The notes beneath the pieces are model-generated. The model ran no database searches. It was not told the DNA's origin and saw only the letters and a list, made by a program, of their open reading frames with translations. This document shows positions 28,865 through 52,500 of a DNA stretch of 64,000 nucleotides, piece after piece. Made by a program: the position numbers and the translations under genes. Positions within the stretch are counted from its first letter, which is position 1; each line of letters begins with the position of its first letter. Source of the stretch: Seriola aureovittata (Eukaryota > Chordata > Actinopteri > Carangiformes > Carangidae); the NCBI RefSeq assembly GCF_021018895.1, contig NC_079373.1:24379376-24443375 (forward strand), given 5' to 3'.

Positions 28865-30380
28865 GTGCATATCCAGAACTGATGCAGTCAAAGAAATCCT
28901 TGCTCTGCGACTGTCACAGTCAAGAATGAAAGCTATCAGCAGCATCAGACTACTGTGTCTAAAGCAATGTTTCAATATTTTGCATGCTCCAGCCCCCATA
29001 TGGTGTATTTCATTTCCTCCTTGAAGAGCTCACCATGCATATTATTGTCTTCTATTTTGAGACACTCCATGCCGTGCAGTGTGTAGAGTGAAATGTAGGG
29101 GGTTTTACCAAACGTCTGTGCCCACCAGGGCCAGCCACACAGCAGCTGTGACTGATAAAGCGAATCCTCTCCACGAGAGGGAAAAAAAAAAAACTTGTTC
29201 TCTGCTCCCTCTCGACTCTCAACCCACAACTCCTGTCCTGTCCCTGAGGCGCAAACGTCCAACTTCCAAATGCCAACTCAGTCAGGAGTTATCACCACTA
29301 TTTCCCCAGCGAAAAATGTCAGATGGATGGTGATTTTCTGCTTTATGATTTCACAGGAGTGGTGACCGTACAGTGCGAGAGGTTTTCTGTCCCAGTTTGA
29401 TAAGTGGGGCATAATAATGAAAATGGCTTTTTGAAAACTAAGGTAAAGCCTCATTTCAGCCCTGGCAGGTCAGCTGAAACTGCAAAGGACAATGTTTAGT
29501 ACACTGTTGAAATGATTGTTCTCCATTTTCTTCCATCCTCATGCTCTCATTACTGTACTGTGTGCAAACTTAATTTGTTTGCATATCTTTGTTATAAATC
29601 ATCCAAAATGTACTGGTGCCTCACACGCACATTGAAAACATCCATCATGGGCTGAGCTGTCTTTCATTTTGTTCATTTGGGGTGTATTTCACAGCCAGTG
29701 AGACACAAACGAGAGACTGAGCAGACCATGGCTCAGCGCCCATTGTCACTCTTCCTGAACACAAGGCAATAATCACCCATGCATCTCCAATCTGAGCTGA
29801 GAATAAAACAAGGTGAGAAAATGAGCACCACAGCACCACTGCAGGGGGAGAAAGTGCGAAAGGACGCTCAATGACACGCCTAACACGTTCAACATCATGG
29901 CACTTTTTTTTTAAATCTTGAAAAATTGTATATTTGATGTCAAGGGCAGTCAAGTCCAGCAGCATTAGCCCAGGAAAAACAATCATGATGGCCATGGAGA
30001 GCGAAGCGGTCACAGAGTCAAGAGCTCAAGGAAGTGAGTGGAGTCATTTGACTGTGGGTTGATGCGTATAGTGTCAGAGTAGAAGCTCCTTAAAGCTGTT
30101 ACAGTGAGATTTGACTGCCATTTGTCATATTTCCTTTTGAGTCGTGAATGGAGCAGAGAGAAGAGGCTTATAGGATATTTTTAGACTCTCTTTGATGGCT
30201 TATTAGCTGGACTGGAACACTTTGACTCTCTTAAAACCAAATATAAATACATCACAATGATGGCAAAGGACCAAGAATAAATCACAGTTTCTATGACTAT
30301 TAGTGACATGATGGAAATTAATGGGATAGATGCCCTCACTATGAATCTCTCACCTCCATATCATACATGGAACATGACGG
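28865..30380. other. Non-coding stretch before the satellite array
   Basis: No gene supported. The 122-codon minus-strand frame at 29645-30013 has one hydrophobic N-terminal stretch, but no domain, no splice-like borders and no recognised relative, so it is not called. A short A run lies at about 29181-29192. Confidence 0.5.
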
Positions 30381-33091
30381 AAATATGACTTTTTATAATG
30401 AACTATACTATGACGTTTTTATGAATTTATATGCCTCAGTATACTATGATGTTTTTATGCCTTAGTATACTGTAACATTTTATGACTTTTATAACGAACT
30501 ATACTGACTTTTTTATGGTTACTGTACTATGACTTTTTTATGACTTTTTATTCCTCACTATACTATGACATTTAATATCTTACTATACTATTACTTTTTG
30601 TGCCTTACTATACTATGACATTTTTCTGACTCTTTATGCCTTACTATAACTTTAACGTTTTTATGACTTTTTATGCTTCACTATACTATGACATTTCATG
30701 CCTTACTATACTATGACGTTTTTATGCCTTACTATATTATGACTTTTTGTGCCTTACTATACTATGACATTTTCATGCGTTACTATACTATGACATTTTT
30801 ATGCCTTATTATACTATGACTTTTTTATGACTTTTTATAACGAACTATACTATGACTTTTTTATGCTTTACTATACTATGACTTTTTTATGCCTTGCTAT
30901 CTATACAATAACGTTTTTTATGACTTTTTATGCCTCACTGTACTATGACATTTTCATGCCTTACTATACTATGACATTTTTATGCCTTACTATACTATGA
31001 CATTTTTATGCCTTACTATACTATGACTTTTTTATGACTATTTGTGCCTTACTATACTATGGCATTTTTATGGCTTAATATACTATGACTTTTTTATGCC
31101 TTGCTATCTATACAATACAGTTTTTATGACTTTTTATGCCTCACTGTACTATGACGTTTTCATGCCTTACTATACTATGACTTTTTGTGCCTTACTATAC
31201 TATGACATTTTTATGCCTTCCTATACTATGACTTTTTTATGACTTTTTGTGCCTTATTATACTGTGGCATTTTTATGTCATACCATAGTATGACTTTTTT
31301 ATAACTTTTTATGCCTTTCTTTATTATGATGTTTTATGCCTCACTATATTAGGGCTTTTTTATGCCTTGCTATCTATACAATGACATTTTTATGACTTTT
31401 TACGCCTCACTGTACTATGACGTTTTCAGGTGTTACTATATTATGACGCTTTTATAACTTTTCATATCAAACTATACTATGGCATTTTAATGCCTTAGTA
31501 TACTATGAGTTTTTATGAGTTTATATGCCTTATTATGCTATGACGTTTTCCTGTCTTACTATGCTATGACGTTTTTATGCCTTACTGGACTATGACATTT
31601 TTATGCCTTACTATACTATGACTTTTTGTGCCTTACTACACTATGACTTTTTTTATGACATTTTTTAATGCCTTACTATACTATGACATTTTTATGACTT
31701 TTTGTGCCTTACAATACTATGGCATTTTTATGGCATACTATAGTATGACTTTTTTATAACTTTTTATGCCTTTCTATATTATGACATTTTATGCCTTACT
31801 GTACTATGACATTTCTATGCCTAACTATAGTATGGCTTTTTATGACTCACTATACTAGGACTTTTTTATGCCTTGCTATCTATACAATGACGTTTTTATG
31901 ATATTTTACGCCTCACTGTACTATGATGTTTTCATGCGTTATTATATTATGACGCTTTTATAATTTTTTTATAACAAACTATACTGTGACATTTTAATGC
32001 CTTAGTATACTATGAGTTTTTATGAGTGTATATGCCTTATTATGCTATGACTTTTTATGCCTCACTATACTATGAGGTTTTTATGACTTTTTATGCCTCA
32101 CTGTACTATGACGTTTCATGTCTTACTATGCTATGACGTTTTTATGCATTACTATGCTATGACATTTTTTTGACTTTTTATGCCTTACTATACTATGACA
32201 TTTTTATGCCTTACTATACTATGACTTTTTTATGACTTTTTGTGCCTTACTATACTATGGCATTTTTTATGGCATGCTATTGTATGACTTTTTTATAACT
32301 TTTTATGCCTTTCTATATTATGACATTTCATGTCTTACTATGCTATGACGTTTTTATGCATTACTATGCTATGACATTTTTTTGATTTTTTATGCGTTTC
32401 TATATTATGACATTTTATGCCTTACTATACTATGACATTTTTATGCCTTTTTATGCCTTACTATACTATGACATTTTTAGGCCTTACTATACTGTAACAT
32501 TTTTATGACTTTTTATACTATGACATTTTTATGACTTTTTGTGGCTTACTATACTATGGCATTTTTATGCCTTACTATACTATGACATTTTTATGCCTTA
32601 CTATACTATGACATTTTTATGACTTTTTGTGCCTTACTATACTATGGCTTTTTTTATGGCATACTATTGTATGACTTTTTTATACCTTTTTATGCCTTTC
32701 TATATTATGACATTTCATGTCTTACTATGCTATGATGTTTTTATGCATTACTATGCTATGACATTTTTTTGACTTTTTATGCCTTTCTATATTATGACAT
32801 TTTATGCCTTACTATACTATGACATTTTTATGCCTTACTATACTATGACTTTTTTATGACTTTTTGTGCCTCACTATACTATGGCATTTTTATGCCTTAC
32901 TATACTCTGACATTTTTATGACATTTCATAACGAACTATACAATGACTTTTTTATGACTTTTTTATGACTTTTTGTTCCTTACTATACTATGGCATTTTT
33001 ATGCCTTACTATACTATGACATTTTTATGCCTTACTATACTATGACTTTTTTATGACTTTTTGTGCCTTACTATACTATGGCATTTTTATG

Positions 33092-33105
33092 GCATACTAT
33101 AGTAT
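33092..33105. repeat. Perfect 14-bp palindrome within a satellite variant (example copy)
   Basis: CATACTATAGTATG reads the same on both strands. It appears in the variant unit that begins GGCATACTATAGTATGAC, at this place and repeatedly elsewhere, for example near 31734, 34166, 34226, 34286 and 34746. A second form, CATACTATTGTATG, has a mismatch at the centre. The dyad is a property of the satellite variant; any protein-binding role is speculative. Confidence 0.7.
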
Positions 33106-35506
33106 GACTTTTTTATAACTTTTTATGCCTTTCTATATTATGACATTTCATGTCTTACTATGCTATGACGTTTTTATGCATTACTGTGCTATGACTTTTT
33201 TATAACTTTTTATGCCTTTCTATATTATGACATTTTATGCCTTACTATACTATGACATTTCTATGCCTAACTATAGTATGACTTTTTTTTTGACTTTTTA
33301 TGCCTTTCTATATTATGACATTTTATGTCTTACTATGCTATGACGTTTTTATGCATTACTATGCTATGAAATTTTTTTGATTTTTTATGCGTTTCTATAT
33401 TATGACATTTTATGCCTTACTATACTATGACATTTTTATGCCTTACTATACTATGACTTTTTTATGACTTTTTATGCCTTACTATACTATGACATTTTTA
33501 GGCCTTACTATACTGTAACATTTTTATTACTTTTTATACTATGACATTTTTATGACTTTTTGTGCCTTACTATAATATGGCATTTTTATGCCTTACTATA
33601 CTATGACATTTTTATGCCTTACTATACTATGACTTTTTTATGACTTTTTATGCCTTACTATACTATGACATTTTTAGGCCTTACTATACTGTAACGTTTT
33701 TATGACTTTTTATACCTCACTATACTATGACATGTCATGTCTTACTATGCTATGACGTTTTTATGCATTACTGTGCTATGACATTTTTTTGACTTTTTGT
33801 GCCTTACTATACTATGGCATTTTTATGGCATACTACAGTATGTCTTTTTTATAACTTTTTATGACTTTTTTTATGACATTTTTTAATGCCTTACTATAAT
33901 ATGATGTTTTTATGCCTTACTATACTCTGACATTTTTATGACATTTCATAACGAACTATACAATGACTTTTTTATGACTTTTTGTGCCTTACTATACTAT
34001 GGCATTTTTATGCCTTACTATACTATGACATTTTTATGCCTTACTATACTATGACTTTTTTATGACTTTTTGTGCCTTACTATACTATGACATTTTTATG
34101 CCTTACTATACTATGACTTTTTTATGACTTTTTGTGCCTTACTATACTATGGCATTTTTATGGCATACTATAGTATGACTTTTTTATAACTTTTTATGCC
34201 TTACTATACTATGGCATTTTTATGGCATACTATAGTATGACTTTTTTATAACTTTTTATGCCTTACTATACTATGGCATTTTTATGGCATACTATAGTAT
34301 GACTTTTTTATAACTTTTTATGACTTTTTATGCCTTTTTATATTATGACATTTCATGTCTTACTATGCTATGACGTTTTTATGCATTACTGTGCTATGAC
34401 TTTTTTATAACTTTTTATGCCTTTCTATATTATGACATTTTATGCCTTACTATACTATGACATTTCTATGCCTAACTATAGTATGACTTTTTTTTGACTT
34501 TTTATGCCTTTCTATATTATGACATTTTATGCCTTACTATACTATGACATTTTTATGCCTTACTATACTATGACTTTTTTATGACTTTTCATAACGAACT
34601 ATACAATGACTTTTTTATGACTTTTTGTGCCTTACTATACCATGGCATTTTTATGCCTTACTATACTATGACATTTTTATGCCTTACTATACTATGACTT
34701 TTTTATGACTTTTTGTGCCTTACTATACTATGGCATTTTTATGGCATACTATAGTATGACTTTTTTATAACTTTTTATGCCTTTTTATATTATGACATTT
34801 CATGTCTTACTATGCTATGACGTTTTTATGCATTACTGTGCTATGACTTTTTTATAACGTTTTATGCCTTTCTATATTATGACATTTTATGCCTTACTAT
34901 ACTATGACATTTCTATGCCTAACTATAGTATGACTTTTTTTTGACTTTTTATGCCTTTCTATATTATGACATTTTATGCCTTACTATACTATGACATTTT
35001 TATGCCTTACTATACTATGACATTTTTATGCCGTACTATACTATGACTTTTTTATGACTTTTTATGCCTTACTATACTATGACTTTTTATGACTTTTTAT
35101 GCCTTACTATACTATGACTTTTTTATGACTTTTTATGCCTTACTATACTATGACTTTTTAGGCCTTACTATACTGTAACGTTTTTATGACTTTTTATGCC
35201 TTACTATACTATGGCATTTTTATGCCTTACTATACTATGACATTTTTATGCCTTACTATACTATGACTTTTTTATGACTTTTTGTGCCTTACTATACTAT
35301 GGCATTTTTTATGGCATACTATTGTATGACTTTTTTATAACTTTTTATGCTTTCTATATTATGACATTTTTATGACATTTCATGTCTTACTATGCTATGA
35401 CGTTTTTATGCATTACTATGCTATGACATTTTTTTGATTTTTTATGCGTTTCTATATTATGACATTTTATGCCTTACTATACTATGACATTTTTAGGCCT
35501 TACTAT

Positions 35507-35742
35507 GCCATGAGTTTATAATGGGCTCACTAGGTGGTACAGTGGTTAAGGTTGTTGCTTTATAATAAGAAGGTTGTGGGTTTGAATCCTGGGACATTTG
35601 GTGTGGACATTGAGAGTTTTTATGCCTTACTATACTATGACATTTTCTTGAAGTTTTTATGTCTTACTATACTATGACTTTTTTATGACTTTTTGTGCCT
35701 TCTCGTTCTATAATATTTTTATGCTTTCAAATAGTATGACAT
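35507..35742 (+). repeat. Cassette block alpha, copy 1 (tRNA-like plus spacer)
   Basis: The block begins GCCATGAGTTTATAATGGGC and contains a tRNA-like segment (about 35521-35615): GGTGGTACAGTGGTTAAGG resembles an A box, and TGTGGGTTTGAATCCTGGGA contains a B-box-like GGTTTGAATCC. It is followed by a shared tail, CATTTGGTGTGGACATTGAG. Further on come TTCTTGAAGTTTTTATGTCT and GTGCCTTCTCGTTCTATAAT, unlike normal units. Compared with the other four alpha copies, the middle of this one has been replaced by ordinary satellite text. It is a tRNA-derived repeat fragment, not a functional tRNA. Confidence 0.75.
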
Positions 35743-38448
35743 TTTTATGCCTTACTATACTATGACTTTTTTATGACTTTTTGTGCCTTACTATACTATG
35801 GCATTTTTTATGGCATACTATTGTATGACTTTTTTATAACTTTTTATGCCTTTCTATATTATGACATTTCATGTCTTACTATGCTATGACATTTTTATGC
35901 TTTACTATACTATGACATTTTTATGACTTTTTTTTGACTTTTTATGCGTTTCTATATTATGACATTTTATGCCTTACTATACTATGACATTTTTAGGCCT
36001 TACTATACTGTAACGTTTTTATGACTTTTTATACCTCACTATACTATGACATTTCATGTCTTACTATGCTATGACGTTTTTATGCATTACTGTGCTATGA
36101 CATTTTTATGACATTTTTATGCCTACTATACTATGACATTTTTTTGACTTTTTATGCCTCATTATACTATGAAGTTTTTATGCCTTGCTATCTATACAAT
36201 AACATTTTTATGACTTTTTATGCCTCACTGTACTATGACGTTTTCATGCTTTACTATACTATGACATTTTTATGCCTTACTATACTATGACTTTTTGTGC
36301 CTTACAATATTATGACATTTTTATGCTTTACTATACTATGACATTTTTATGCCTTACTATCTTATAACTTTTTATGCCTTACTATACTATGACATTTTTA
36401 TGACTTTTTGTGCCTTACTATACTATGGCATTTTTATGCCTTACTATTACTATGACATTTTTATGCCTTACTATACTATGACTTTTTTATGACTTTTTGT
36501 GCCTTACTATACTATGGCATTTTTATGGCATACTATTGTATGACTTTTTATACTATGACTTTTTTATGCCTTTCTATATTATGACATTTCATGTCTTACT
36601 ATGCTATGACGTTTTTATGCATTACTATGCTATGACATTTTTTTGACTTTTTATGCGTTTCTATATTAAGACATTTTATGCCTTACTATACTATGACATT
36701 TTTATGCCTTACTATACTATGACTTTTTTATGACTTTTTATGTCTTACTATACTATGACATTTTTAGGCCTTACTATACTGTAACGTTTTTATGACTTTT
36801 TATACCTCACTATACTATGACATTTCATGTCTTACTATGCTATGACGTTTTTATGCATTACTGTGCTATGACTTTTTTATAACTTTTTATGCCTTTCTAT
36901 ATTATGACATTTCATGTCTTACTATGCTATGACGTTTTTATGCATTACTATGCTATGACATTTTTTTGATTTTTTATGCGTTTCTATATTATGACATTTT
37001 ATGCCTTACTATACTATGACATTTTTATGCCTTACTATACTATGACTTTTTTATGACTTTTTTATGACTTTTTGTGTCTTACTATACTATGACTTTTTTA
37101 TGACTTTTTATGCCTTACTATACTATGACATTTTTAGGCCTTACTATACTGTAACGTTTTTATGACTTTTTATACTATGACATTTTTATGACTTTTTGTG
37201 CCTTACTATACTATGGCATTTTTATGCCTTACTAGACTATGACTTTTTTATGACTTTTTGTGCCTTACTATACTATGGCATTTTTTATGGCATACTATTG
37301 TATGACTTTTTTATTACTTTTTATGCGTTTCTATATTATGACATTTTATGCCTTACTATACTATGACATTTTTATGCCTTACTATACTATGACTTTTTTA
37401 TGACTTTTTGTGTCTTACTGTACTATGACATTTTTAGGCCTTACTATACTGTAACGTTTTTATGACTTTTTATACCTCACTATACTATGACATTTCATGT
37501 CTTACTATGCTATGACGTTTTTATGCATTACTGTGCTATGACATTTTTTTGACTTTTTGTGCCTTATACTATGAAGTTTTTTATGCCTCATTATACTATG
37601 AAGTTTTTATGCCTTGCTATCTATACAATAACATTTTTATGACTTTTTATGCCTCACTGTACTATGACGTTTTCATGCTTTACTATACTATGACATTTTT
37701 ATGCCTTACTATACTATGACTTTTTGTGCCTTACAATATTATGACATTTTTATGCTTTACTATACTATGACATTTTTATGCCTTACTATCTTATAACTTT
37801 TTTATGACTTTTTGTGCCTTACTATACTATGGCATTTTTATGGCATACTACAGTATGTCTTTTTTATAACTTTTTATGACTTTTTTTATGACATTTTTTA
37901 ATGCCTTACTATAGTATGATGTTTTTATGCCTTACTATACTCTGACATTTTTATGACATTTCATAACGAACTATACAATGACTTTTTTATGACTTTTTGT
38001 GCCTTACTATACTATGGCATTTTTATGCCTTACTATACTATGACATTTTTATGCCTTACTATACTATGACTTTTTTATGACTTTTTGTGTCTTACTATAC
38101 TATGACATTTTTAGGCCATACTATACTGTAACGTTTTTATGACTTTTTATACCTTACTATACTATGGCATTTTTATGCCTTACTATACTATGACATTTTT
38201 ATGCCTTACTATACTATGACTTTTTTATGACTTTTTGTGCCTTACTATACTATGGCATTTTTTATGGCATACTATTGTATGACTTTTTTATAACTTTTTA
38301 TGCCTTTCTATATTATGACATTTCATGTCTTACTATGCTATGACGTTTTTTGCATTACTATGCTATGACATTTTTTTGATTTTTTATGCGTTTCTATATT
38401 ATGACATTTTATGCCTTACTATACTATGACATTTTTAGGCCTTACTAT

Positions 38449-38689
38449 GCCATGAGTTTATAATGGGCTCACTAGGTGGTACAGTGGTTAAGGTTTTTGC
38501 TTTATAATAAGAAGGTTGTGGGTTTGAATCCTGGGACATTTGGTGTGGACATTGAGAGTTTTTATGCCTAGCTATACTATGACATTTTCTTGAAGTTTTT
38601 ATGTCTTCATATAGTATAACGTTTTTATGTCTTTTTGTGCCTTCTCGTTCTATAATATTTTTATGCTTTCAAATAGTATGACATTTTTA
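38449..38689 (+). repeat. Cassette block alpha, copy 2
   Basis: Same order of parts as copy 3, with the tRNA-like segment at about 38463-38557 and then CATATAGTATAACGTTTTTA and CTTTCAAATAGTATGACATT. It differs by single bases (GGTTTTTGC for GGTTGTTGC). It is followed directly by ordinary units and not by block beta. Confidence 0.75.
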
Positions 38690-38999
38690 TGCCTTACTAT
38701 GCTATGACTTTTTTATGACTTTTTGTGCCTTACTATACTATGGCATTTTTTATGGCATACTATTGTATGACTTTTTTATAACTTTTTATGCCTTTCTATA
38801 TTATGACATTTCATGTCTTACTATGCTATGACGTTTTTATGCATTACTATGCTATGACATTTTTTTGATTTTTTATGCGTTTCTATATTATGACATTTTA
38901 TGCCTTACTATACTATGACATTTTTAGGCCTTACTATACTGTAACGTTTTTATGACTTTTTATACCTCACTATACTATGACATTTTTATGCCTTACTAT

Positions 39000-39240
39000 G
39001 CCATGAGTTTATAATGGGCTCACTAGGTGGTACAGTGGTTAAGGTTGTTGCTTTATAATAAGAAGGTTGTGGGTTTGAATCCTGGGACATTTGGTGTGGA
39101 CATTGAGAGTTTTTATGCCTAGCTATACTATGACATTTTCTTGAAGTTTTTATGTCTTCATATAGTATAACGTTTTTATGTCTTTTTGAGCCTTCTCGTT
39201 CTATAATATTTTTATGCTTTCAAATAGTATGACATTTTTA
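39000..39240 (+). repeat. Cassette block alpha, copy 3
   Basis: Nearly identical to copy 2, only about 550 bp upstream, so the two look like a recent local duplication. The tRNA-like segment is at about 39014-39108. It is followed directly by block beta (39250-39566). Confidence 0.75.
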
Positions 39241-39249
39241 TGCCTTACT

Positions 39250-39566
39250 ATGGTATGAGTTTTTATAATTTACAATGCATTTAGTGTATTAGGATGACTG
39301 GGTGGCAGAGTGGTTAAGTCCAATGCTTCCCGATGAGAAGCTCGCAGGTTCAAACCCCCACACCTGCAAACTTTTTATGCCTGACTATACTATGTCTTTT
39401 TTATTACTTTTCATGCCTTCCTATTTTATCACGTATTTATACCTTACTTTACTAAAACGGTTTTATTATTTTTTATGCTTTAATATACTATTACGTTTCA
39501 ATGCCTTACTAATATGACATCTTTATCTTTCATCCTATTCCTGGGACCTTTGGTGTGGACATTATT
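39250..39566 (+). repeat. Cassette block beta, copy 1 (serine/leucine tRNA-like)
   Basis: The tRNA-like part at about 39292-39370 has an A box matching TGGCNNAGTGG exactly (GGGTGGCAGAGTGGTTAAGT) and a B box, GGTTCAAACCC, differing by one base from GGTTCGANNCC. The GTGGTTAAG text is typical of serine and leucine tRNAs with a long variable arm. No full cloverleaf can be drawn, as the acceptor ends do not pair. The spacer that follows (CTTCCTATTTTATCACGTAT, then TTTATCTTTCATCCTATTCC) is unlike ordinary units, and it ends in the shared tail CTGGGACCTTTGGTGTGGAC. Confidence 0.75.
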
Positions 39567-39770
39567 GTTTTGATGCCTGACTATACTATGACTTTTCTAT
39601 GACTGCTTTTGAGCCTTACTATACCATGACATTTTTATGCCATACTATACTATGAGTTGTTTTTTTTTACGTTTTTATGCCTTCTCATGCTATGCTGTGC
39701 TTTGAAATAGTATGACATTTTTATGCCTTACTATGGTATGACTTTTTATACTTTACTACGCAATTGTTAA

Positions 39771-39869
39771 TTGGCTGATTAGGCAGTACAGTGGTTCGGT
39801 CTAATGCTTCCCAATAAGAAGGTTGTAGGTTCAAATCTTATTCGTGGGACCTTTGATGTGGACATTATT
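39771..39869 (+). repeat. Cassette gamma, copy 1 (tRNA-like)
   Basis: GGCTGATTAGGCAGTACAGT, then GGTTCGGTCTAATGCTTCCC, then a B-box-like AGGTTCAAATCTTATTCGTG, and the shared tail GGGACCTTTGATGTGGACAT. It is an intermediate form: the start resembles alpha and the middle (AATGCTTCCC) resembles beta. Its near-identical partner lies at 43670-43768. Confidence 0.7.
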
Positions 39870-41248
39870 GTCTTGATGCCTGACTATACTATGACGTTTT
39901 TTTACGTTTTTATGCCTTACTATAGTATAAATTTTTTTTTTTTTTATGCCTTCTCATACTATAATATTTTTATACTTTCAAATAGTATGACATTTTTATG
40001 CCTTACTATACTATGGCATTTTTATGCCTTACTAGACTATGACTTTTTTATGACTTTTTGTGCCTTACTATACTATGGCATTTTTTATGGCATACTATTG
40101 TATGACTTTTTTATAACTTTTTATGCGTTTCTATATTATGACATTTTATGCCTTACTATACTATGACATTTTTATGCCTTACTATACTATGACTTTTTTA
40201 TGACTTTTTGTGTCTTACTATACTATGACATTTTTAGGCCTTACTATACTGTAACGTTTTTATGACTTTTTATACCTCACTATACTATGACATTTCATGT
40301 CTTACTATGCTATGACGTTTTTATGCATTACTGTGCTATGACATTTTTTTGACTTTTTGTGCCTTATACTATGGAGTTTTTTATGCCTCATTATACTATG
40401 AAGTTTTTATGCCTTGCTATCTATACAATAACATTTTTATGACTTTTTATGCCTCACTGTACTATGACGTTTTCATGCTTTACTACACTATGACATTTTT
40501 ATGCCTTACTATACTATGACTTTTTGTGCCTTACTATATTATGACATTTTTATGCTTTACTATACTATGACATTTTTATGCCTTACTATCTTATAACTTT
40601 TTTATGACTTTTTGTGCCTTACTATACTATGGCATTTTTATGGCATACTACAGTATGTCTTTTTTATAACTTTTTATGACTTTTTTATGACATTTTTTAA
40701 TGCCTAACTATACTATGATGTTTTTATGCCTTACTATACTATGACTTTTTTATGACTTTTTGTGTCTTACTATACTATGACATTTTTAGGCCTTACTATA
40801 CTGTAACGTTTTTATGACTTTTTATACCTTACTATACTATGGCATTTTTATGCCTTTCTATACTATGACATTTTTATGCCTTACTATACTATGACTTTTT
40901 TATGACTTTTTGTGCCTTACTATACTATGGCATTTTTTATGGCATACTATTGTATGACTTTTTTATAACTTTTTATGCCTTTCTATATTATGACATTTCA
41001 TGTCTTACTATGCTATGACGTTTTTATGCATTACTATGCTATGACATTTTTTTGATTTTTTATGCGTTTCTATATTATGACATTTTATGCCTTACTATAC
41101 TATGACATTTTTATGCCTTACTATACTATGACTTTTTTATGACTTTTTATGTCTTACTATACTATGACATTTTTAGGCCTTACTATACTGTAACGTTTTT
41201 ATGACTTTTTATACCTCACTATACTATGACATTTTTATGCCTTACTAT

Positions 41249-41489
41249 GCCATGAGTTTATAATGGGCTCACTGGGTGGTACAGTGGTTAAGGTTGTTGC
41301 TTTATAATAAGAAGGTTGTGGGTTTGAATCCTGGGACATTTGGTGTGGACATTGAGAGTTTTTATGCCTAGCTATACTATGACATTTTCTTGAAGTTTTT
41401 ATGTCTTCATATAGTATAACGTTTTTATGTCTTTTTGTGCCTTCTCGTTCTATAATATTTTTATGCTTTCAAATAGTATGACATTTTTA
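41249..41489 (+). repeat. Cassette block alpha, copy 4
   Basis: Same structure as copies 2 and 3, with the tRNA-like segment at about 41263-41357. ACTGGGTGGT replaces ACTAGGTGGT in the head, a difference shared with copy 5. Block beta follows at about 41500. Confidence 0.75.
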
Positions 41490-41499
41490 TGCCTTACTA

Positions 41500-41812
41500 T
41501 GGTATGAGTTTTTATAATTTACAATGCATTTAGTGTAGTTGGGTGGCAGAGTGGTTAGGTCGAATGCTTCCCGATGAGAAGCTCGCAGGTTCAAACCCCC
41601 ACACCTGCAAACTTTTTATGCCTGACTATACTGTGTCTTTTTTATTACTTTTCATGCCTTCCTATTTTATCACGTATTTATACCTTACTTTACTAAAATG
41701 GTTTTATTATTTTTTATGCTTTAATATACTATTACGTTTCAATGCCTTACTAATATGACATCTTTATCTTTCATCCTATTCCTGGGACCTTTGGTGTGGA
41801 CATTATTGTTAT
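41500..41812 (+). repeat. Cassette block beta, copy 2
   Basis: The tRNA-like part is at about 41538-41612, with A box GGTGGCAGAGTGGTTAGGTC and B box GGTTCAAACCC. It lacks a few bases just before the tRNA-like head (TAGTTGGG for TAGGATGACTGGG). After the shared tail at 41781-41806, an abrupt TATTGTTAATACTGTGCTAT joins it to ordinary units, so the gamma cassette that follows beta in the other two duplications has been lost here. Confidence 0.75.
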
Positions 41813-42898
41813 TGTTAATACTGTGCTATGACTTTTTTATAACTTTTTATGCCTTTCTATATTATGACATTTTATGCCTTACTATACTATGACATTTCTA
41901 TGCCTAACTATAGTATGACTTTTTTTTTACTTTTTATGCCTTTCTATATTATGACATTTTATGCCTTACTATACTATGACATTTTTATGTCTTACTATAC
42001 TATGACTTTTTTATGACTTTTTGTGCCTTACTATACTATGACCTTTTGTGCCTTACTATACTATGACATTTTTATGCCTTACTATACAATGACTTTTTTA
42101 TGACTTTTTATGCCTTACTATACTATGACATTTTTAGGCCTTACTATACTGTAACGTTTTATGACATTTTATACTATGACATTTTTATAACTTTTTGTGC
42201 CTTACTATACTATGGCATTTTTATGCCTTACTATACTATGGCATTTTTATGCCTTACTATACTATGACTTTTTTATGACTTTTTGTGCCTTACTATACTA
42301 TGGCATTTTTTATGGCATACTATTGTATGACTTTTTTATAACTTTTTATGCCTTTCTATATTATGACATTTCATGTCTTACTATGCTATGACGTTTTTAT
42401 GCATTACTATGCTATGACATTTTTTTGACTTTTTATGCGTTTCTATATTATGACATTTTATGCCTTACTATACTATATTATGACTTTTTTATGACTTTTT
42501 GTGTCTTACTATACTATGACATTTTTAGGCCTTACTATACTGTAACGTTTTTATGACTTTTTATACCTCACTATACTATGACATTTCATGTCTTACTATG
42601 CTATGACGTTTTTATGCATTACTGTGCTATGACTTTTTTATAACTTTTTATGCCTTTCTATATTATGACATTTTATGCCTTACTATACTATGACATTTTT
42701 ATGCCTTACTATACTATGACTTTTTTATGACTTTTTGTGCCTTAGTATACTATGATGTTTTTATGCCTTACTATACTATGACTTTTTTATGACCTTTTGT
42801 GTCTTACTATACTATGACATTTTTAGACCTTACTATACTGTAACGTTTTTATGACTTTTTATACCTCACTATACTATGACATTTTTATGCCTTACTAT

Positions 42899-43140
42899 GC
42901 CATGAGTTCATAATGGGCTGACTGGGTGGTACAGTGGTTAAGGTTGTTGCTTTATAATAAGAAGGTTGTGGGTTTGAATCCTGGGACCTTTGGTGTGGAC
43001 ATTGAGCGTTTTTATGCCTAGCTATACTATGACATTTTCTTGAAGTTTTTATGTCTTCATATAGTATAACGTTTTTATGTCTTTTTGTGCCTTCTCGTTC
43101 TATAATATTTTTATGCTTTCAAATAGTATGACATTTTTAT
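42899..43140 (+). repeat. Cassette block alpha, copy 5
   Basis: Same order of parts as copy 4, with the tRNA-like segment at about 42913-43007. It carries GGGCTGACTGGGTGGT and CTGGGACCTTTGGTGTGGAC, both closer to cassettes gamma and delta than the other alpha copies are. It may therefore be the least altered alpha. Confidence 0.75.
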
Positions 43141-43149
43141 GTCTTACTA

Positions 43150-43467
43150 TAGTATGAGTTTTTATAATTTACAATGCATTTAGTGTAGTAGGATGACTGG
43201 GTGGCAGAGTGGTTAGGTCGAATGCTTCCCGATGAGAAGCACGCAGGTTCAAACCCCCACACCTGCAAACTTTTTATGCCTGACTATACTATGTCTTTTT
43301 TATTACTTTTCATGCCTTCCTATTTTATCACGTATTTATACCTTACTTTACTAAAACGATTTTATTATTTTTTACGCTTTAATATACTATTACGTTTCAA
43401 TGCCTTACTAATATGACATCTTTATCTTTCATCCTATTCCTGGGACCTTTGGTGTGGACATTATTGT
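43150..43467 (+). repeat. Cassette block beta, copy 3
   Basis: Near-identical to copy 1, with the tRNA-like part at about 43191-43270 and the shared tail at 43438-43465. It follows alpha copy 5 at the same spacing as beta copy 1 follows alpha copy 3. Confidence 0.75.
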
Positions 43468-43669
43468 TTTGATGCCTGACTATACTATGACTTTTCTATG
43501 ACTGCTTTTGAGCCTTACTATACCATGACATTTTTATGCCATAATATACTATGAGGTTCTTTTTTACGTTTTCATGCCTTCTCATGCTATGCTGTGCTTT
43601 GAAATAGTATGACATTTTTATGCCTTACAATGGTATGACTTTTTAGTCTTTACTACGCAATTGCTTTAT

Positions 43670-43768
43670 TGGGCTGATTAGGCAGTACAGTGGTTCGGTC
43701 TAATGCTTCCCAATAAGAAGGTTGCGGGTTCAAATCTTATTCGTAGGACCTTTGGTGTGGACATTATT
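43670..43768 (+). repeat. Cassette gamma, copy 2
   Basis: Matches 39771-39869 with a few substitutions (GTTGCGGGTTCAAATCTTAT for GTTGTAGGTTCAAATCTTAT; CGTAGGACC for CGTGGGACC). The two copies are about 3.9 kb apart, equal to the offset of the alpha and beta blocks before them. Confidence 0.7.
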
Positions 43769-43918
43769 GTTTTGATGCCTATACTATGACGTTTTTTTAC
43801 GTTTTTATGCCTTACTATAGTATAACATTTCTATGTTTTTTTATGCCTTCTCATACTATAATATTTTTATACTTTCAAATAGTATGACTTTTTATCCTTT
43901 AGTATGCATAAATCCTAA

Positions 43919-44019
43919 CAGGCTGACTGGGTGGCATAGTGGTTATGTGTATTGCCACCCAATGAGAAGATTGTGGGTTTGAATCCCCAAAGCTGAGACC
44001 TTCTGAGTAGACATTGAAT
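43919..44019 (+). repeat. Cassette delta (tRNA-like), single copy
   Basis: GGCTGACTGGGTGGCATAGT, then GGTTATGTGTATTGCCACCC, then GATTGTGGGTTTGAATCCCC with a B-box-like GGTTTGAATCC, then a tail CTGAGACCTTCTGAGTAGAC. It differs from alpha, beta and gamma in the anticodon-side region and has no duplicate in the window. It marks the right end of the cassette-bearing part of the forward arm. Confidence 0.65.
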
Positions 44020-46324
44020 GGTTTTATGACTGCTTTTATGCCTTACTATACCATGACATTTTTATGCCATACTATGATTTCTTTATGCCTTACTAAAGTA
44101 TGACATTTTTATGGCTTTTTTGTCTTACTATACTATGATGTTTTTATATCTTTTTATGCCTTACTATACTATGACTTTTTATGACTTTTTGTGCTTTACT
44201 ATACTATGACATTTTATGCCTTACTATACTATAACATTTTTCTGACTTTTTATACCTCACTATACTTTGACATTTCATGTCTTACTATGCTATGACGTTT
44301 TAATGCCTTTCTATACTATGACATTTTTATGACTTTTTGTGCCTTACTATACTATGACATTTTTATGACATTTCATAACGAACTATACTATGACTTTTTT
44401 ATGACTTTTTGTGCCTTACTATACTATGACTTTTTTATGCCTTACTATACTATGGCATTTTTTATGGCATACTATAATATGACTTTTTTATAACTTTTTA
44501 GGCCTTTCTATATTATGACGTTTTATGCCTTACTATGCTATGACATTTCATGTCTTACTATGCTATGACGTTTTTATGCCTAACTATACCATGACATTTT
44601 TATGCCATACTATAATTTCTTTATGTCTTACTAAAGTATGACATTTTTATGGCTTTTTTGTCTTACTATACTATGATGTTTTTATATCATTTTATGCCTT
44701 TACTATGACGTTTTTACGCCTTAATATACTACAGTATGAATATTTATTCCTTACTTTAGTATGACATTTGATGCCTTACTATACTATGACTTTTTTATGA
44801 CTTACTTTAATATGACTTTTTATGACTTTTTTTGCCTTACTATACTATGGCATTTTATGCCTTACTATAATATAACGTTTTTATGACTTTTTATACCTCA
44901 CTATACTTTGACATTTCATGTCTTACTATGCTATGACGTTTTTATGCATTACTATACTATGACATTTCTATGACTTTTTGTGCCTTACTATACTATGGCA
45001 TTGTTATGCCTTACTATACTATGACATTTTTATGCCTTACTATGCTATGACTTTTTTATGACTTTTTGTGCCTTACTATACTATGGCATTTTTTATGGCA
45101 TACTATAATATCACTTTTTTATAACTTTTCAGGCCTTTCTATATTATGACGTTTTATGCCTTACTATACTCTGACAATTTTTATGACTTTTTTATGCCTT
45201 ACTATACTATGACTTTTAATGACTTTTTGTGCCTTACTATACTATGACATTTCATGTCTTACTATGCTATGACATTTTTATTCCTTATTATACTATGACG
45301 TTTTTATGACTTACTATACTATGACATTTTTATGCCTTACTGTACTATGGCATTTTTATGGCATACTATAGTATGACTATTTTAAAACTTTTTATGTCTT
45401 TTTATATTATGACGTTTTATGCCTTACTATACTATGATGTTTTTATGTCTTACTATACTATGACATTTTTATGACTTTTTATAACAAACTATACTATGAC
45501 GTTTTTGTGCCTTACTATACTATGACTTTTTTATGACTTTTAATAACGAACTATTCCATGACGTTTTTATGCCTTTCTATACTATGGTGTTTTTATGACT
45601 TTTTAACCAACTATACTATGACGTTTTTATACCTTACTATAATATGACATTTTTATGCCTCACTATACTATGACTTTTAAGGACTATTTGTACCTTATTG
45701 TGCCTTACTATGGCATTTTTATGGCATACTATAGTATGACTATTTTATAACTTTTTATGCCTTTTTATACTATGACATTTTATGCCTTACTATACTATGA
45801 CGTTTTTATGTCTTACTATACTATGACATTTTTATGCCTTATTATACTATGACTTTTTGTGCCTTACTATATACTATGACTTTTTTTATGACTTTTAATA
45901 ACGAACTATATCATGACTTTTTTATGCCTTACTATCCTATGACTATTTTATAACTTTTTATGCCTTTGTATATTATAACGTTTTATACCTCGCTATACTA
46001 TGACATTTCATGTGTTACTATGCTATGACATTTTTATACCTTATTATACTATGACGTTTTTATGCCTTACTATACTATCACTTTTGTATGCCTTACTATA
46101 CTATGGCATTTTTATGGCATACTATAGTATGACTATTTTATAACTTTTTATGCCTTTTTATATTATGACATTTTTGTGCCTTGATATACTATGACTTTTT
46201 GTGCCTTACTATACTATGACTTTTGTATGACTTTTTATAACAAAATATACTATGACGTTTTTGTGCCTTACTATACTATGACTATTTTATGACTTTCAAT
46301 AACGAACTATACCATGACATTTTT

Positions 46325-46337
46325 ATATATATATATA
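46325..46337. repeat. (TA)n tract at the strand-switch point of the array
   Basis: A pure alternating TA run sits between the last forward-oriented unit (ACTATACCATGACATTTT, ending at about 46324) and the first reverse-oriented text (AAGGAATAAAAACTCAC from about 46337). It is therefore at or within a few bases of the inversion point. TA runs extrude easily as cruciforms and are frequent breakage sites, but whether it caused the inversion or formed afterwards cannot be read from the sequence. Confidence 0.8.
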
Positions 46338-49300
46338 AGGAATAAAAACTCACAAATAAGTCATAATATATTATTATTATAAAAACTTCATAGTATAGTT
46401 AGGCATAAAAAGTCATAAAAGTGTCACAGTACAGTAAGACATGAAAACTTCATAGCATATTAAGTCATTAAAAAATAGTATAGTAAGGCATAAAAAGTCA
46501 TAAAAAAGTCATAGTATTGTAAGGCATAAAAAGTCATAGTATAGTAAGGCATAAAAAGTCATAAAAATCTCATAGCATAGTAAGACATGAAAACTTCATA
46601 ATACATTAAAGAATTAAAATGTGATATCATTGTAAGGCATAAAAGTAATAAAAAAGGTCATAGTATAGTATAGTAAGGCATAAAAACTTCATAATCTAGT
46701 AAGGCATAAAAAGTCATTAAAAAGTCATAATACACCAAGGCATAAAAAGTCATAAAAAGCATAGTATAGTAAGGCATAAAAAGTCATAAAAAAAGTCATA
46801 GTATTGTAAGGCATAAAAAGTCATAGTATAGTAAGGCATAAATAGCCATAAAAAAAAGTCATAGTATTGTAAGGCATAAAAAGTCATAGTATAGTAAGGC
46901 ATAAAAAGTCATAAAAAAAAGTCATAGTATTGTAAGGCATAAAAAGTCATAGTATAGTAAGGCATAAAAAGTCATAAAAATGTCATAGTATAGTAAGTCA
47001 TAAAAAGTCATAGTATAGTAAGGCATAAAAGGTCATTAAAAAGTCATAGTATAGTAAGGCATAAAAAGTCATAGTATATAGTAAGGCATAAAAATTCATA
47101 GTATAGTAAGGCATAAAAAGTCATGAAAATGTCATAGTATAGTAAGTCATAAAAAGTCATAGTATAGTAAGGCATAAAAAGTCATTAAAAAGTCTTAGTA
47201 TATCAAGGCATAAAAAGTCATAAAAAGCATAGTACAGTAAGGCATAGAAGAGTCATAAAAGATTCATAGTATAGTAAGGCATAAAAAGTCAAATAAAAGT
47301 CATAGTATATCAAGGTATAAAAAGTCAAAAATTATGCAGTATAGTATGGCATAAAAACTTCATAGTATAGTAAAGGCATAAAAAGTCATAAAAAAGTCAT
47401 AATATTGCAAGGCATAAAAAGTCATAGTATAGTAAGGCATAAAACCATTATAGTAAGGCTTAAAAAGTCATAAAAAAGTCATAGTATAGTAAGGCATAAA
47501 AAGTCATACTATACTAAGAAATAACAACATCATAGTAAGGCAAAAAAAGTCATGAATAAGTCATAGTATAGCAAGGCAAAAAAAGTCATAAAAAAGTCAT
47601 AGTATGGTAAGGCATGAAAACATCTAAAAAACGTCATAGTATGGTAAAGTATAAAAAATCATAAGTCATAGTATAGTAAGCCATAAAAAGTCATAAAAAA
47701 GTCATAGTATATCAAGGTATAAAAAGTCAAAAATTAGTCAGTATAGTATGGCATAAAAACTTCATAGTATAGTAAAGGCATAAAAAGTCATAAAAAAGTC
47801 ATAGTATTGTAAGGCATAAAAAGTCATAAAAAAGTCAAATTGTAGTAAGGCATAAAAATGTCATAGTATAGTAAGGCATAAAAAAGTCAAATTATAATAA
47901 GGTATAAAAAAGTCATAGTATAGTACAGCATGAAAAAGTCATGATAGTAAGGCATAAAAATGTCAAAAAACGTCATATTATACTAAGGCATAAAAATGTC
48001 AAAAAACGTCATAGTTTAGTAAGGCATAAAAAGTCATACTATACCAAGGCATAAAAACATTATAGTAAGGCATAAAAATATCTAAAAAAAACATAGTATA
48101 GTAAGGCATAAAAAGTCATAAAAAAGTCATAGTATAGCAAAACATAAAAAGTCATAAAAAAGTCATAGTATAGTAAGGCATAAAAAGTCATGAATAAGTC
48201 ATAGTATAATATGGTATAGAAAAGTCAAAAATAAGTCCTAGTATAGTAAGGCATAAAAAGTCATAGTATAGTAAGTCTTAAAAAGTCATATAAAAAGTCA
48301 TAGTGCAGGAAAGCATAAAAACATAATATTATAGTATGGCATAAAAAGTCATAAAAATGTCATACTATAGTAAGAAATGAAAACTTCATAGTATAGTGAG
48401 GCATTAAAATGTCATAGTATAGTAAGACATATAAAGTCATAAAAAAAGTCATAGTATTGTAAGGCATAAAAAGTACATAGTATATTAAGGTATAAAAAGT
48501 CACACTATATTAAGGCATAAAACGTCATAGTAAGGCATAAAAAGTCATAAATAAGTCATAGTATAGTGAGGCATAAAAACATCTAAAAAAACATTTTAGT
48601 AAAATAAGGCATAAATACATGATAAAATAGGAAGGCATGAACGGTAATAAAAAAGACATAGTATAGTCAGGCATAAAAACACTCAATGTCTAACCCGAAG
48701 GTCCCTGGTGTGGGGGTTTGAACCCAAAACCTTCTAATTGGGAAGCATTAGACCGAACCACTCACCCACCTAGACAGCCCACTAGAACAAATGTATAGTA
48801 AAGACTAAAAAGTCATACTAAAGTAAGGCATAAAAATTTCAAGCTTTTTGAAAGCATAAAAATATCATAGAATGAGAAGGCACAAAAAGACAAAAACATT
48901 ATAATATAGTAAAGCATAAAAAAATCATAAGTAAGTCATAGTATAGTAAAGCATAAAAAGTCATTAAAAAGTCATGGTATAGTAAAGCATAAAAAATCTA
49001 AAAAAATGTCATAGTATAGTAAGGTATAAAAACATCTAAAAAAAGGTCATAGTACAGTATATTAAGGCATAAAAAGTTATAAATAAGTCAAGTTATAGTA
49101 AGGCATAAAAATGTTTAAAAAAACATCATAGTATAGTAGGGCATAAAGCCGTCATAAAAAAGTCATAATATAGTCAGTTATAAAAACCTCATAGTATAGT
49201 AAGGCACGAAAAGTCATAAGTAAGTCATAGTATAGTAAAGCATAAAAAGTCATAAAAAAAGTCATAGTATAGTATGGCATAAAAACTTCATAGTATATTA

Positions 49301-49540
49301 AGGCATAAAAGTTTTATAGTATAGAAAGGCATAAAAACATTAAAAAAAATGTCATAGTATCGTAAGGCATAAAAATTCATAAAACAGTCATAGTATTGTA
49401 AGGCATAAAAACGTCAAAAAAACAGCTTGGTATAGTAAGGCACAAAAAGTCGTAAGTAAGTCATAGTATTGTAAGGTATAAAAACGTCATAGTATAGTAA
49501 GGCATGAAAATTCATATTATAATAAGGTATAAAAAGTCAC
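46338..49540 (-). repeat. AT-rich satellite array, inverted arm (about 3.2 kb)
   Basis: From here the plus strand shows the complement of the unit in the forward arm: GTCATAGTATAGTAAGGCAT followed by AAAAA. The arm includes one tRNA-like cassette (48683-48782), also inverted. Units here are more irregular than in the centre of the forward arm (GTCATAGTATTGTAAGGC, AAAAACTTCATAGTATAG, AGTATATCAAGGTATAAAAA). The array fades out at about 49540 into unique sequence beginning CAATAAATCTGAGATC. Confidence 0.95.
48683..48782 (-). repeat. Cassette epsilon (tRNA-like) in the inverted arm
   Basis: On the minus strand it reads GGGCTGTCTAGGTGGGTGAG, TGGTTCGGTCTAATGCTTCC, AGAAGGTTTTGGGTTCAAAC, then CAGGGACCTTCGGGTTAGAC. 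The CGGTCTAATGCTTCCCAA core ties it to gamma, and its minus-strand downstream flank (TTTTTATGCCTGACTATACT) matches the flank of beta/gamma in the forward arm. Its direction relative to the satellite unit is the same as for all the forward-arm cassettes. Confidence 0.75.
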
Positions 49541-52500
49541 CAATAAATCTGAGATCTATGTCTTTAAGAGGAAGCCGATATTCTCAGAGAGAACACACGC
49601 AATTGCTTGCTAGGTATCAAATACCAAATATGAATATGTAGTTCTTTAAAAGCTGCCAGCTTCCCATTTGTATCGAGGTTATCTGTGTCCACTCTTAGTG
49701 ACAAAACTAAGCTAAAACATGTCTTTGATGTCTCTCAACAGTGCTTCACATTCTCAGACTCAATGACCACTGACAACTTCCAAGTATAACCACAATGTCC
49801 TACTGTTAGCTGCTGAGGAATAGGTGTTGATGACAGAAGCAGCAGAGACTAGGAGGTATATCCAACAGTCCTGAGATCTGATCTAACCACAAACCCTTTT
49901 TAGAGGTGATTTAAGCCAAAGATGTTTCTGTGTTCTGTGTGACGGTATAGCTCATAATCACTGAGACCTTTTTAGTTTGCCCAGTACAATCTTATTACCT
50001 CTCATTCTGCGAATGTCTCCCTGAATACCAAGCAATCTGTAGATAGTACGGGTCAGACAGCACAACATGGGGTAACTAGCCATCCTCCGCTTTTCTTTGT
50101 TGTGGAGCAACCTTCATGCTAAGATAATGTGAAGACACCCCCTACATCATCTGCCACACATCCATCCTCCCACTTTCCTGTCTGAATAGCAGATGAGGAT
50201 ATAGTGCCTACACAGTCAAACACAGATGCACATACAGACTGCACATCATTGGGAAATAGGTACATTAACTCCATGTGCCAAAGACTGCACACACAGTGGA
50301 GGTCATGAATATTTGACAGGAGCTGCACAAACCTTGGAGAACTTTAAGCTCAACTCGCTGGTCACCATGCATCTTTAATCAGGTCTGCCCCTCTTGTCCG
50401 ACATCAGGAAAAGAATAACTGCTGGGACCCGGAGTTTGAGAAAGTAGCTGGCCCTCTCTCCACCTTGATGAATAAGTAAACACATTCAACCAGGCAGAGA
50501 TGCAGTCTGCTGGCTTTGAGTCGATAACAAGTAGATTTGTTTTCTTCTGAAAGCAGCGCTGTTTACAAGCTACCGATTACCCCTCAAATTTGATCCATCT
50601 CTCAACAGTTTTCACTGAGCTTTGACACGACCTGGCTCTCAGTCTGACCACACACTCTCTGCCTCTCCTCTCGACGTGTCCAAGCAGAGCCTGTGAAAGG
50701 TGTATTTCATGGTGTAATAAAAAAGAAATTAGGTTGTGCCTGCGCTGAGCTTCTGTTTATGAGCTTCCCATAAATATTTTCCATCTAAATTTGTGTCAAT
50801 TTCAGAGCAGCTTCCTCCTATAGAGACAAACTTGATTTTCCTGAGTTACTGTAATATTCATTGCATACACCTGAGACTGCTTCAGTGCTCAAGGTTATTT
50901 TCAATAAGAAGCTGTTTAATGTTAGCAGCTATGTATAAACTACTGAAAAACAAAACACATGTGAGTGCACCTCTGCTTGTGTAACAATAACTACTGGCGG
51001 CTGCACAACACAAGTTAAAAAGTGTGTTTTCTTTACATCAAACATTGATACTTTTTTTTTTTTTTAAATGCAATCTGTTCCATTGCCTGCATGTCATCAA
51101 ACAAATAAACAATAATGTTTACCAAATGGCTTTGTTGTACAACATACCCGCTTATTAAAATGGCATCTCATTAGAAGCATTGAGCAGCCGTTTTACATGA
51201 GATTAATTGGGTTTTTTTTAAAGCACTTTCTCTTCATTATCATTCTGTCTTGCAAATGGATTCAGTGCAAAAGGCAATGCATATTCATTTTACAGGAAGC
51301 TTGAAAATTGTTCGGAAATGAGCCAAAGGTGGAGCCGGGCTGGTGTGCCGACTTAGGCTGAATAATAAACACAAGAGCCTCTGCGCTGGAGGTGAAAGAG
51401 AACGGCTGTGTCTGTGGAATACATTTGGAGACCTGCTGAAAACACGTCTCTTACCTTCAATGAAGATTTGTAGTTAATTAGCATTAGATCTAAAACACCT
51501 CTTAATGATAATTATTATTAAAAACATGTAAATGGCACACATTAGATATGTTCATACCCAAAATGAGGAACAGGATGGATGTGTTTTTGATTCCCATGCT
51601 GCCAGGTAAAGATTTGGATGTAAGGCGAATTCTTGGCTACCTCTTTCACTCTAGTGGCATTAATAATGCACACAGACAAGCTTTTACTGGATTCTGATTT
51701 GCTATTTCAAAAAGCAGGAGGAAATGTGCAGCATACTCTCTTGATAGAGTGGTCTAGTTGCACTTTAATGAAATGAATAGGGAAGATTCTTCTTTTTTTC
51801 TTTGACATACTATTTTGTATGTGTAATGTGTATATTTCAACATCAGAGGAGCTCACTTGGTTTGAAAGCCAGCCTGAGGCTGGGAACCAAACAAAAAGTT
51901 TTCCTTTTTGCCAAGTTATGGACTCTTTTACCTGAGGCAAGATGAAGCACTTCAAAGGCAAAGGGCATCCTTTGTCAGCATCTCAAACTGACAACAAGAG
52001 ATCCACCTCAAGAGTAATTGCAGACAACCGCTATTCAAAAGAAACAGTCCCTTTGGCTACACATCCAACAAAACAAGAGACATCATTTCACAGAGCTGCG
52101 ATCCGTCATTAACCTTAACAGGGTTAATGGGGGATCTATCATCAGTAGGAAAAAAAGTAAAAGAGCATGTCTACGTGTAAGTTTGTAAATTGGACTAATT
52201 AACATGTTGACATGCTAGCATGTATTAGTCAGTATAAATATATTTTACTAAAAATTAATTTAGAGTAGAATGTCACAGCCTTTCTTGACTTTAGGACAAA
52301 TTTGCCATCAGCCTGAGTCTAATTGATTTTCCAGAAGACGAATAAAAAGGAATAAGACCTGAAATTAGCCAGTGTCATTTTTGTGGAGACATCCTTCGTC
52401 TTTAGCTCTGAGCATAAATGTCACTGAACAGTAAAACACTCGTTAATTAAAGTGTAATTGTGTTGCAGTTGGTTCGGTGCCTCATTTAGTTCTATCTGAT

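Follow-up and report, generated by a model that had tools for sequence, protein, structure and literature searches.

How do segments resembling tRNA genes come to lie inside a satellite, every one of them pointing the same way relative to the satellite unit? The question is raised by a stretch of 64,000 nt from Seriola aureovittata (C10:24379376-24443375, hereafter the window), part of a genome of 647 Mb in 31 contigs, to which the C numbers refer. The window contains a satellite array of ~19 kb (30384-49537) with two arms of opposite polarity, 16 and 3.2 kb long, and twelve such segments, here called cassettes, lie between its units. Judged by their sequence, the cassettes resemble heads of a V-SINE-type short interspersed nuclear element (SINE) that have lost their 3' part. 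The reading that we regard as probable is that these heads became embedded in the satellite, that those of the window go back to one founder, and that the resulting composite was amplified, duplicated in blocks and partly inverted.

Satellite and cassettes of the window

The basic satellite unit is AT-rich and unlike the SINE head; a hidden Markov model (HMM) of the head matched nothing at E<=1 in 10 kb of the same satellite on C1. A k-mer map places the two arms at 30365-46333 and 46325-49546. The turn of array polarity falls on a short (AT)n run (46327-46345). The strand asymmetry is extreme: runs of four or more T number 641 in the unit sense versus 5 in antisense in the + arm, and 407-1243 versus 0-63 in four other arrays (C17, C1, C3 and C6). 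The unit-sense strand has a T run about every 25 nt, the opposite strand hardly any.

The initial annotation had listed the cassettes in five classes (alpha x5, beta x3, gamma x2, delta and epsilon) between satellite units, and a pattern search recovered the same classes in the same numbers. It had also described them as being of one polarity, and all 12 are indeed unit-sense, including epsilon in the inverted arm. Identities are 95-100% within classes and 69-83% between them; the 12 heads are not independent. Distances between heads range from 247 to 4755 bp over the 19-kb array, with neighbours 247-275 bp apart where adjacent. In the window outside the array, no head was detected either by pattern (<=6 mismatches) or by the HMM (both strands, E<=1). 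The tail said to be common to the cassettes is found in nine of the 12 heads, with 0-1 mismatches in alpha and gamma, five in delta and four in epsilon; it is absent from all three beta heads and occurs besides as three tail-only remnants. At six mismatches, the tail pattern has one match beyond the array (17542, - strand), and the exact 20-mer of the tail occurs four times in 647 Mb, every time inside the window.

The term 'tRNA-like' is valid for the cassettes at the level of the RNA polymerase III (Pol III) boxes only. An A box and a B box are present in 12/12 heads, 44 nt apart, each with 0-1 mismatch to the consensus. At <=2 mismatches, the array contains 55 box pairs, versus 4-12 in ten dinucleotide shuffles; among the 55, several heads are paired in more than one way, and some pairs are antisense. 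Models of tRNA did not bear the description out: ARAGORN found no tRNA, and Rfam returned nothing at the gathering score, nothing at E<=5 in 30300-49600 and nothing at E<=0.1 across the window. The B boxes have decayed differently, with TG in alpha and delta and CA in beta, gamma and epsilon.

The name V-SINE denotes a match to a reference sequence that we take to represent this superfamily. Against this reference, whole cassettes score z 21.2 (alpha5), 14.6 (delta), 11.7 (gamma2), 10.8 (epsilon) and 4.0 (beta3), and the tails alone 3.4, 4.9, 2.5, 0.8 and -0.1, respectively. The window copies reach ~20 nt into the SINE body, seemingly the start of the central V domain, and then stop; by eye, the satellite starts right after the tail, and the 3' end derived from a long interspersed nuclear element (LINE) is absent from these copies. 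The cassettes are SINE fragments, not complete SINEs. At their edges, satellite near-repeats on both sides would mask any target-site duplications (by eye). Relatives with a longer, variably decayed body past the tail, GGGCCTTTCTGTGTGGAGTTT-like and in agreement with the V-SINE reference, are present at C3 10.374, C10 16.715, C11 20.009, C3 11.323 and C1 18.56-18.58 Mb, and a head without satellite, a free SINE, at C22 1.622 Mb. On the 3' side of this free head (5397-5574 of the fetched stretch) there is a weak match to MIR8562 (E 0.00088, far below the gathering score), perhaps due to the repeat-derived origin of that miRNA family.

Ancestry of the window cassettes

Within the window, polarity alone is weak evidence, because five classes agree in direction by chance in 1/16 of cases. 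The strong evidence comes from flanks and block duplications. Compared with a background of 400 random array places, the 5' flanks of beta-epsilon (z 5.1-5.4), beta-delta (3.0-5.6) and beta-gamma (2.4-4.3) and the 3' flanks of alpha-gamma (z 6.4-7.4) and beta-epsilon (3.8-6.0) match at levels each reached by 0/400. The 5' junctions of beta, gamma, delta and epsilon are alike (p 0.0013 for both epsilon-beta and epsilon-gamma). Since epsilon matches the 5' and 3' flanks of beta beyond background, the composite is older than the inversion, in agreement with the sequence of events first suggested. A marker spacer unit, searched at <=8 mismatches of 37, has eight matches in the window, all beside cassettes: 35698, 38640, 39191, 39949, 41440, 43090 and 43846 on the + strand and 48844 on the - strand.

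Strict self-comparison revealed duplications of 1108 bp (96.2%), 744 bp (96.4%) and 682 bp (97.5%) that keep the order alpha-beta-tail(-gamma) (Table 1, copies A to C). Copy A matches 42787-43888 at 96.2%, and 38888-39569 matches 41137-41810 at 97.5%. A further duplication of 963 bp (95.5%) contains one alpha in each copy, alpha1 and alpha2. Self-alignments at a loose score (75-90%, among the 45 listed of 570) were rejected as evidence of ancestry, being mostly generic satellite likeness.

A tree was built from the distinct sequences, 45 in number, among 76 cassettes. The window cassettes split from all others in it with moderate support (89/90); the values for C17 and C1 are 90/80 and 96/96. 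The free SINE of C22, the single satellite-free SINE included, fell outside the window group. Flank matches, ordered block duplications and separation in the tree agree with the proposal of one or a few captures followed by co-amplification, and descent of the window cassettes from one founder is well supported.

Table 1. Features of the satellite array, in window positions
Feature	Position	Strand	Basis
Satellite array, + arm, AT-rich, 10/11-nt and 15-nt subunits (TATGACTTTTT / ATGCCTTACTATAC)	30384..46330	+	TRF (Tandem Repeats Finder), anchor spacings, k-mer map
Inversion point inside AT-rich stretch	46331..46360	.	sequence reading
Satellite array, inverted arm	46360..49537	-	TRF, self-comparison, k-mer map
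alpha1, head and tail	35524..35611	+	pattern search, box placing
alpha2	38466..38553	+	pattern search, box placing
alpha3	39017..39104	+	pattern search, box placing
alpha4	41266..41353	+	pattern search, box placing
alpha5	42916..43003	+	pattern search, box placing, V-SINE comparison
beta1, head only, without tail	39292..39370	+	pattern search, box placing
beta2, head only	41535..41611	+	pattern search, box placing
beta3, head only	43191..43269	+	pattern search, box placing
gamma1	39773..39866	+	pattern search, box placing
gamma2	43672..43765	+	pattern search, box placing
delta	43921..44015	+	pattern search, box placing
epsilon, inverted arm, unit-sense, flanks in common with beta	48685..48779	-	pattern search, flank test, alignments
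Tail-only remnant 1	39543..39563	+	pattern search
Tail-only remnant 2	41784..41804	+	pattern search
Tail-only remnant 3	43442..43462	+	pattern search
Marker spacer unit between alpha3 and beta1	39191..39227	+	pattern, <=8 mismatches of 37
Duplicated block alpha-beta-tail-gamma, copy A	38888..39991	+	strict self-comparison
Duplicated block alpha-beta-tail-gamma, copy B, then delta	42787..43888	+	strict self-comparison
Duplicated block alpha-beta-tail, copy C	41137..41810	+	strict self-comparison

Polarity across the genome and competing explanations

An exact satellite 31-mer occurs 17,710 times genome-wide (8996 forward, 8714 reverse; reversed-word control, 0). Searching the genome with alpha5 gave 27 matches, 19 of them outside the window, and 18 of these 19 lie in or beside the same satellite. 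Polarity was determined in nine fetched stretches chosen by alpha5 likeness, the window among them. All 75 cassettes at E<1e-3 agree with the local satellite (reversed-sequence control, 0), and the mixed orientations that might have spoken for independent insertions were not encountered. The 75 comprise 40 cassettes on C17, 13 on C1, 12 in the window, four and two on C3, one and one on C6, and one each on C10 and C11; 13 of those counted had trained the HMM, and for the second C3 10.374 Mb copy polarity was assigned by eye. Of the 86 rows that the HMM gave up to E 1, the ten above 1e-3 were not counted (three tail remnants, three from C17 and four from C3); they have satellite polarity as well. 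An array taken without regard to alpha5 (C1 0.2967-0.3065 Mb) has no head by the cassette HMM (E<=1) in 10 kb, and its edge (C1:296501-296700) shows, by eye, degenerate TTAGGG-like repeats and an apparent reverse tRNA-type SINE. In the k-mer map of C1, the main - strand array has a density of 0.81-0.84, and weak + strand blocks of 0.40-0.45, with one of 0.50, overlie it; the + blocks are read as palindromic satellite words. A same-polarity pattern of head and satellite found 26 neighbours genome-wide versus 4 in the reversed control. By eye, those at C3 8.34, C14, C19 9.95 and C23 seem to be chance matches, and the other 22 sit on C1, C3, C4, C6, C8, C10, C12, C15, C19 and C21.

The array with most cassettes is that of C17 (C17:10967416-10990043), 22.6 kb long with 40 of them. 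The spacings 307-294-245-187/188 recur there three times, meaning that cassette blocks were duplicated in order there too. The cassette order of the window, by contrast, did not turn up in other arrays, as judged from spacings and tree, and the idea that the order might be common to arrays was not borne out. At the other extreme are two small satellite-SINE-satellite copies ~1 kb apart, of the same polarity and with unequal SINE body (C3:10373700-10375015), and the smallest chimera seen, a SINE head joined straight to a satellite piece of <100 nt in unique-looking DNA (C6:1342986-1343137).

We propose that a decayed, tRNA-derived head of V-SINE type became embedded in the AT-rich, strand-asymmetric satellite, and that head and adjoining satellite would then have formed a composite higher-order unit, which would have diverged into classes alpha to epsilon. 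Block duplications of 0.7-1.1 kb would have multiplied the composite again, and part of it would have been inverted. Amplification would have proceeded at the DNA level, by unequal exchange or a similar process, with the heads as passengers; a process of this kind suffices as an explanation. The satellite is found on many chromosomes, and several arrays carry their own amplified heads, in satellite polarity wherever examined.

Several observations weigh against this reading. In the flank test, the alpha 5' flank resembles that of no other class, delta has no 3' match, gamma and delta do not match each other on the 5' side, and the 3' flanks of beta or epsilon are unlike those of alpha or gamma; in the epsilon row, the 5' score of epsilon-delta is reached by 35/400 and that of epsilon-gamma by 5/400. 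Identities of the spacers (5' 81-89%, 3' 75-90%; heads 74-83%) do not discriminate, because pairs without flank homology reach 85-88%. Block duplications without cassettes are also common in the array by strict self-comparison, and the value 89/90 lies under the star of the tree program. The V-SINE reference fits beta poorly (z 4.0), and the reference sequences were set down after the cassettes had been viewed. The alpha5 search returned neither beta nor epsilon, which limits its reach, and the loci chosen with it are not a random sample. Finally, C3 11.31-11.32 Mb holds two lineages, one of which groups with C17 (93/92), and the C6 17.23 cassette groups with the free C22 SINE (91/77).

The single polarity of the sampled arrays could reflect common descent, an insertion target with a strand bias, or selection that disfavours Pol III read-through of the satellite. 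That SINEs were captured independently several times across the genome, always in the same polarity through an insertion preference for one strand of the asymmetric satellite, is an account that we find rather doubtful. Its attraction lies in the extreme T-run bias of the arrays, in junctions that are unlike among C17, C11, C21, C10 19.43 Mb, C12 and others, and in the two lineages at C3 11.3 Mb and the grouping of C6 17.23 with the free SINE. However, by the general logic of target-primed reverse transcription, with no particular partner LINE, an A-rich tail primed on the T-rich strand would make the SINE read in the sense of the A-rich strand, the reverse of the observed arrangement. Moreover, the 5' junction TATRAC[AT]TTGT is rare: across five array regions it accounts for 7 of the 1757 occurrences of TATRAC, some of the seven being the junctions themselves. 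It stands at cassettes on C1, C3 and C6, and also at C1 18.54, C3 12.67 and C15 14.55 Mb. The epsilon junction matches that of C1 with p 0.0003 (best of 136 pairs), and C1 matches C3 10.37 (p 0.028) and C3 11.32 (p 0.044). The chance level of such values is shown by a C17 junction, which also matches the flank of the free C22 SINE at 0.014. Common ancestry of part of the arrays is likely.

Polarity might instead be kept by constraint, such that heads persist only if read toward the satellite T runs, which would act as built-in terminators for Pol III. Satellite and promoter would then form a unit, irrespective of the number of captures; we consider this unlikely. If a head yields a Pol III transcript, the dense T runs of the unit-sense strand should keep it short; in the window the first T4 run comes 69-113 nt after the A box start.

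It is quite unlikely that SINE and satellite are a single mobile composite that inserted as a unit, with the repeats expanding afterwards. Small copies do lie in otherwise unique-looking DNA (C3 10.374 Mb twice, C11 with ~0.8 kb, C10 16.715 and C6 1.343 Mb), and the head is near the array 5' end in C3 11.32, C6 17.23 and C11. Yet the ends of the small copies vary from copy to copy by eye, the C1 array stretch of 10 kb is free of cassettes, and comparing the two sides of the window array gave no inverted match (128/200 shuffles do as well) and a direct match that is borderline (8/200), 150 and 80 nt from the edges. A foldback transposon or whole-array mobile unit found no support, the best word common to both edges being 5 nt and the inverted match not above chance.

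That the heads were kept in one polarity for their action as Pol III sites, with immediate termination of the transcripts by the satellite, is very unlikely. Automatic box placing, which misplaced epsilon, found the A box with <=1 mismatch in 69/76 cassettes, the B box in 70/76 and the box distance of 44 in 69/76; the first T4 run past the B box stands at a median of 86 nt from the A box (56-232), and the opposite polarity would meet few T runs. Nevertheless, conservation of the boxes does not exceed that of the remaining head sequence (0.773 versus 0.734; 19/65 mask shifts as high), folds are ordinary in 12/12 cassettes (z -1.05 to 1.17), and CpG has been lost from most B boxes. A functional RNA found no support, with neither fold signal nor box conservation. 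Separate SINE insertions for each window class are highly improbable: low likeness between classes, class-specific B box decay and the weak V-SINE fit of beta would suit them, but several class pairs have homologous flanks, four classes have similar 5' junctions, and the window cassettes form one group in the tree.

Comparison with known systems

Foreign inserts co-amplified as part of a higher-order unit are familiar from bovine satellites. In the window, virus, prokaryote-genome, phage and plasmid collections gave no matches, as expected for animal DNA, and a protein search gave 10 candidates, none at E<=0.001. The literature searched, outside which most subscription papers lie, yielded no description of co-amplified SINE heads of one polarity in a short, strand-asymmetric satellite and no printed account of this satellite, whose repeat words occur in one unrelated paper. 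Here, SINE heads serve as rare landmarks in a short-unit satellite: their order, divergence and junctions make it possible to trace capture, higher-order amplification, block duplication and inversion through an array that is difficult to interpret without them.

As a kind, a satellite with built-in Pol III box-like motifs is not new, contrary to the initial annotation. One review (PMC10702118) lists tandem families with tRNA-like parts, namely, Xenopus OAX (satellite I), newt PolIII/TAN, for which in vitro transcription is reported, Rana/polIII and Hydromantes Hy/polIII, and also SINE-derived satellites (sSat) of squamates. With the V-SINE superfamily (HE1, DANA and Lun1), as portrayed in PMC3747384 and PMC2873951, the cassettes have in common a tRNA-derived head followed by a body; the body is longer in the relatives within this genome, whereas the window copies end ~20 nt into it, without the 3' end. 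The squamate sSat, according to PMC10702118, likewise carry SINE head parts with box B in tandem arrays, and we count as a further likeness that some of their arrays alternate subvariants while long arrays are more homogeneous. However, their repeat unit is itself the SINE piece (67 nt of Squam3 in snakes), whereas in the window the head appears to be a passenger within higher-order units whose basic unit has no similarity to it. The OAX-type families, as reviewed there, resemble the window in being tandem DNA with a tRNA-like segment potentially read by Pol III; in them the segment is part of a tandem unit (~200-360 nt, longer in OAX), whereas the 12 heads of the window are spread unevenly over 19 kb and not one per tandem unit.

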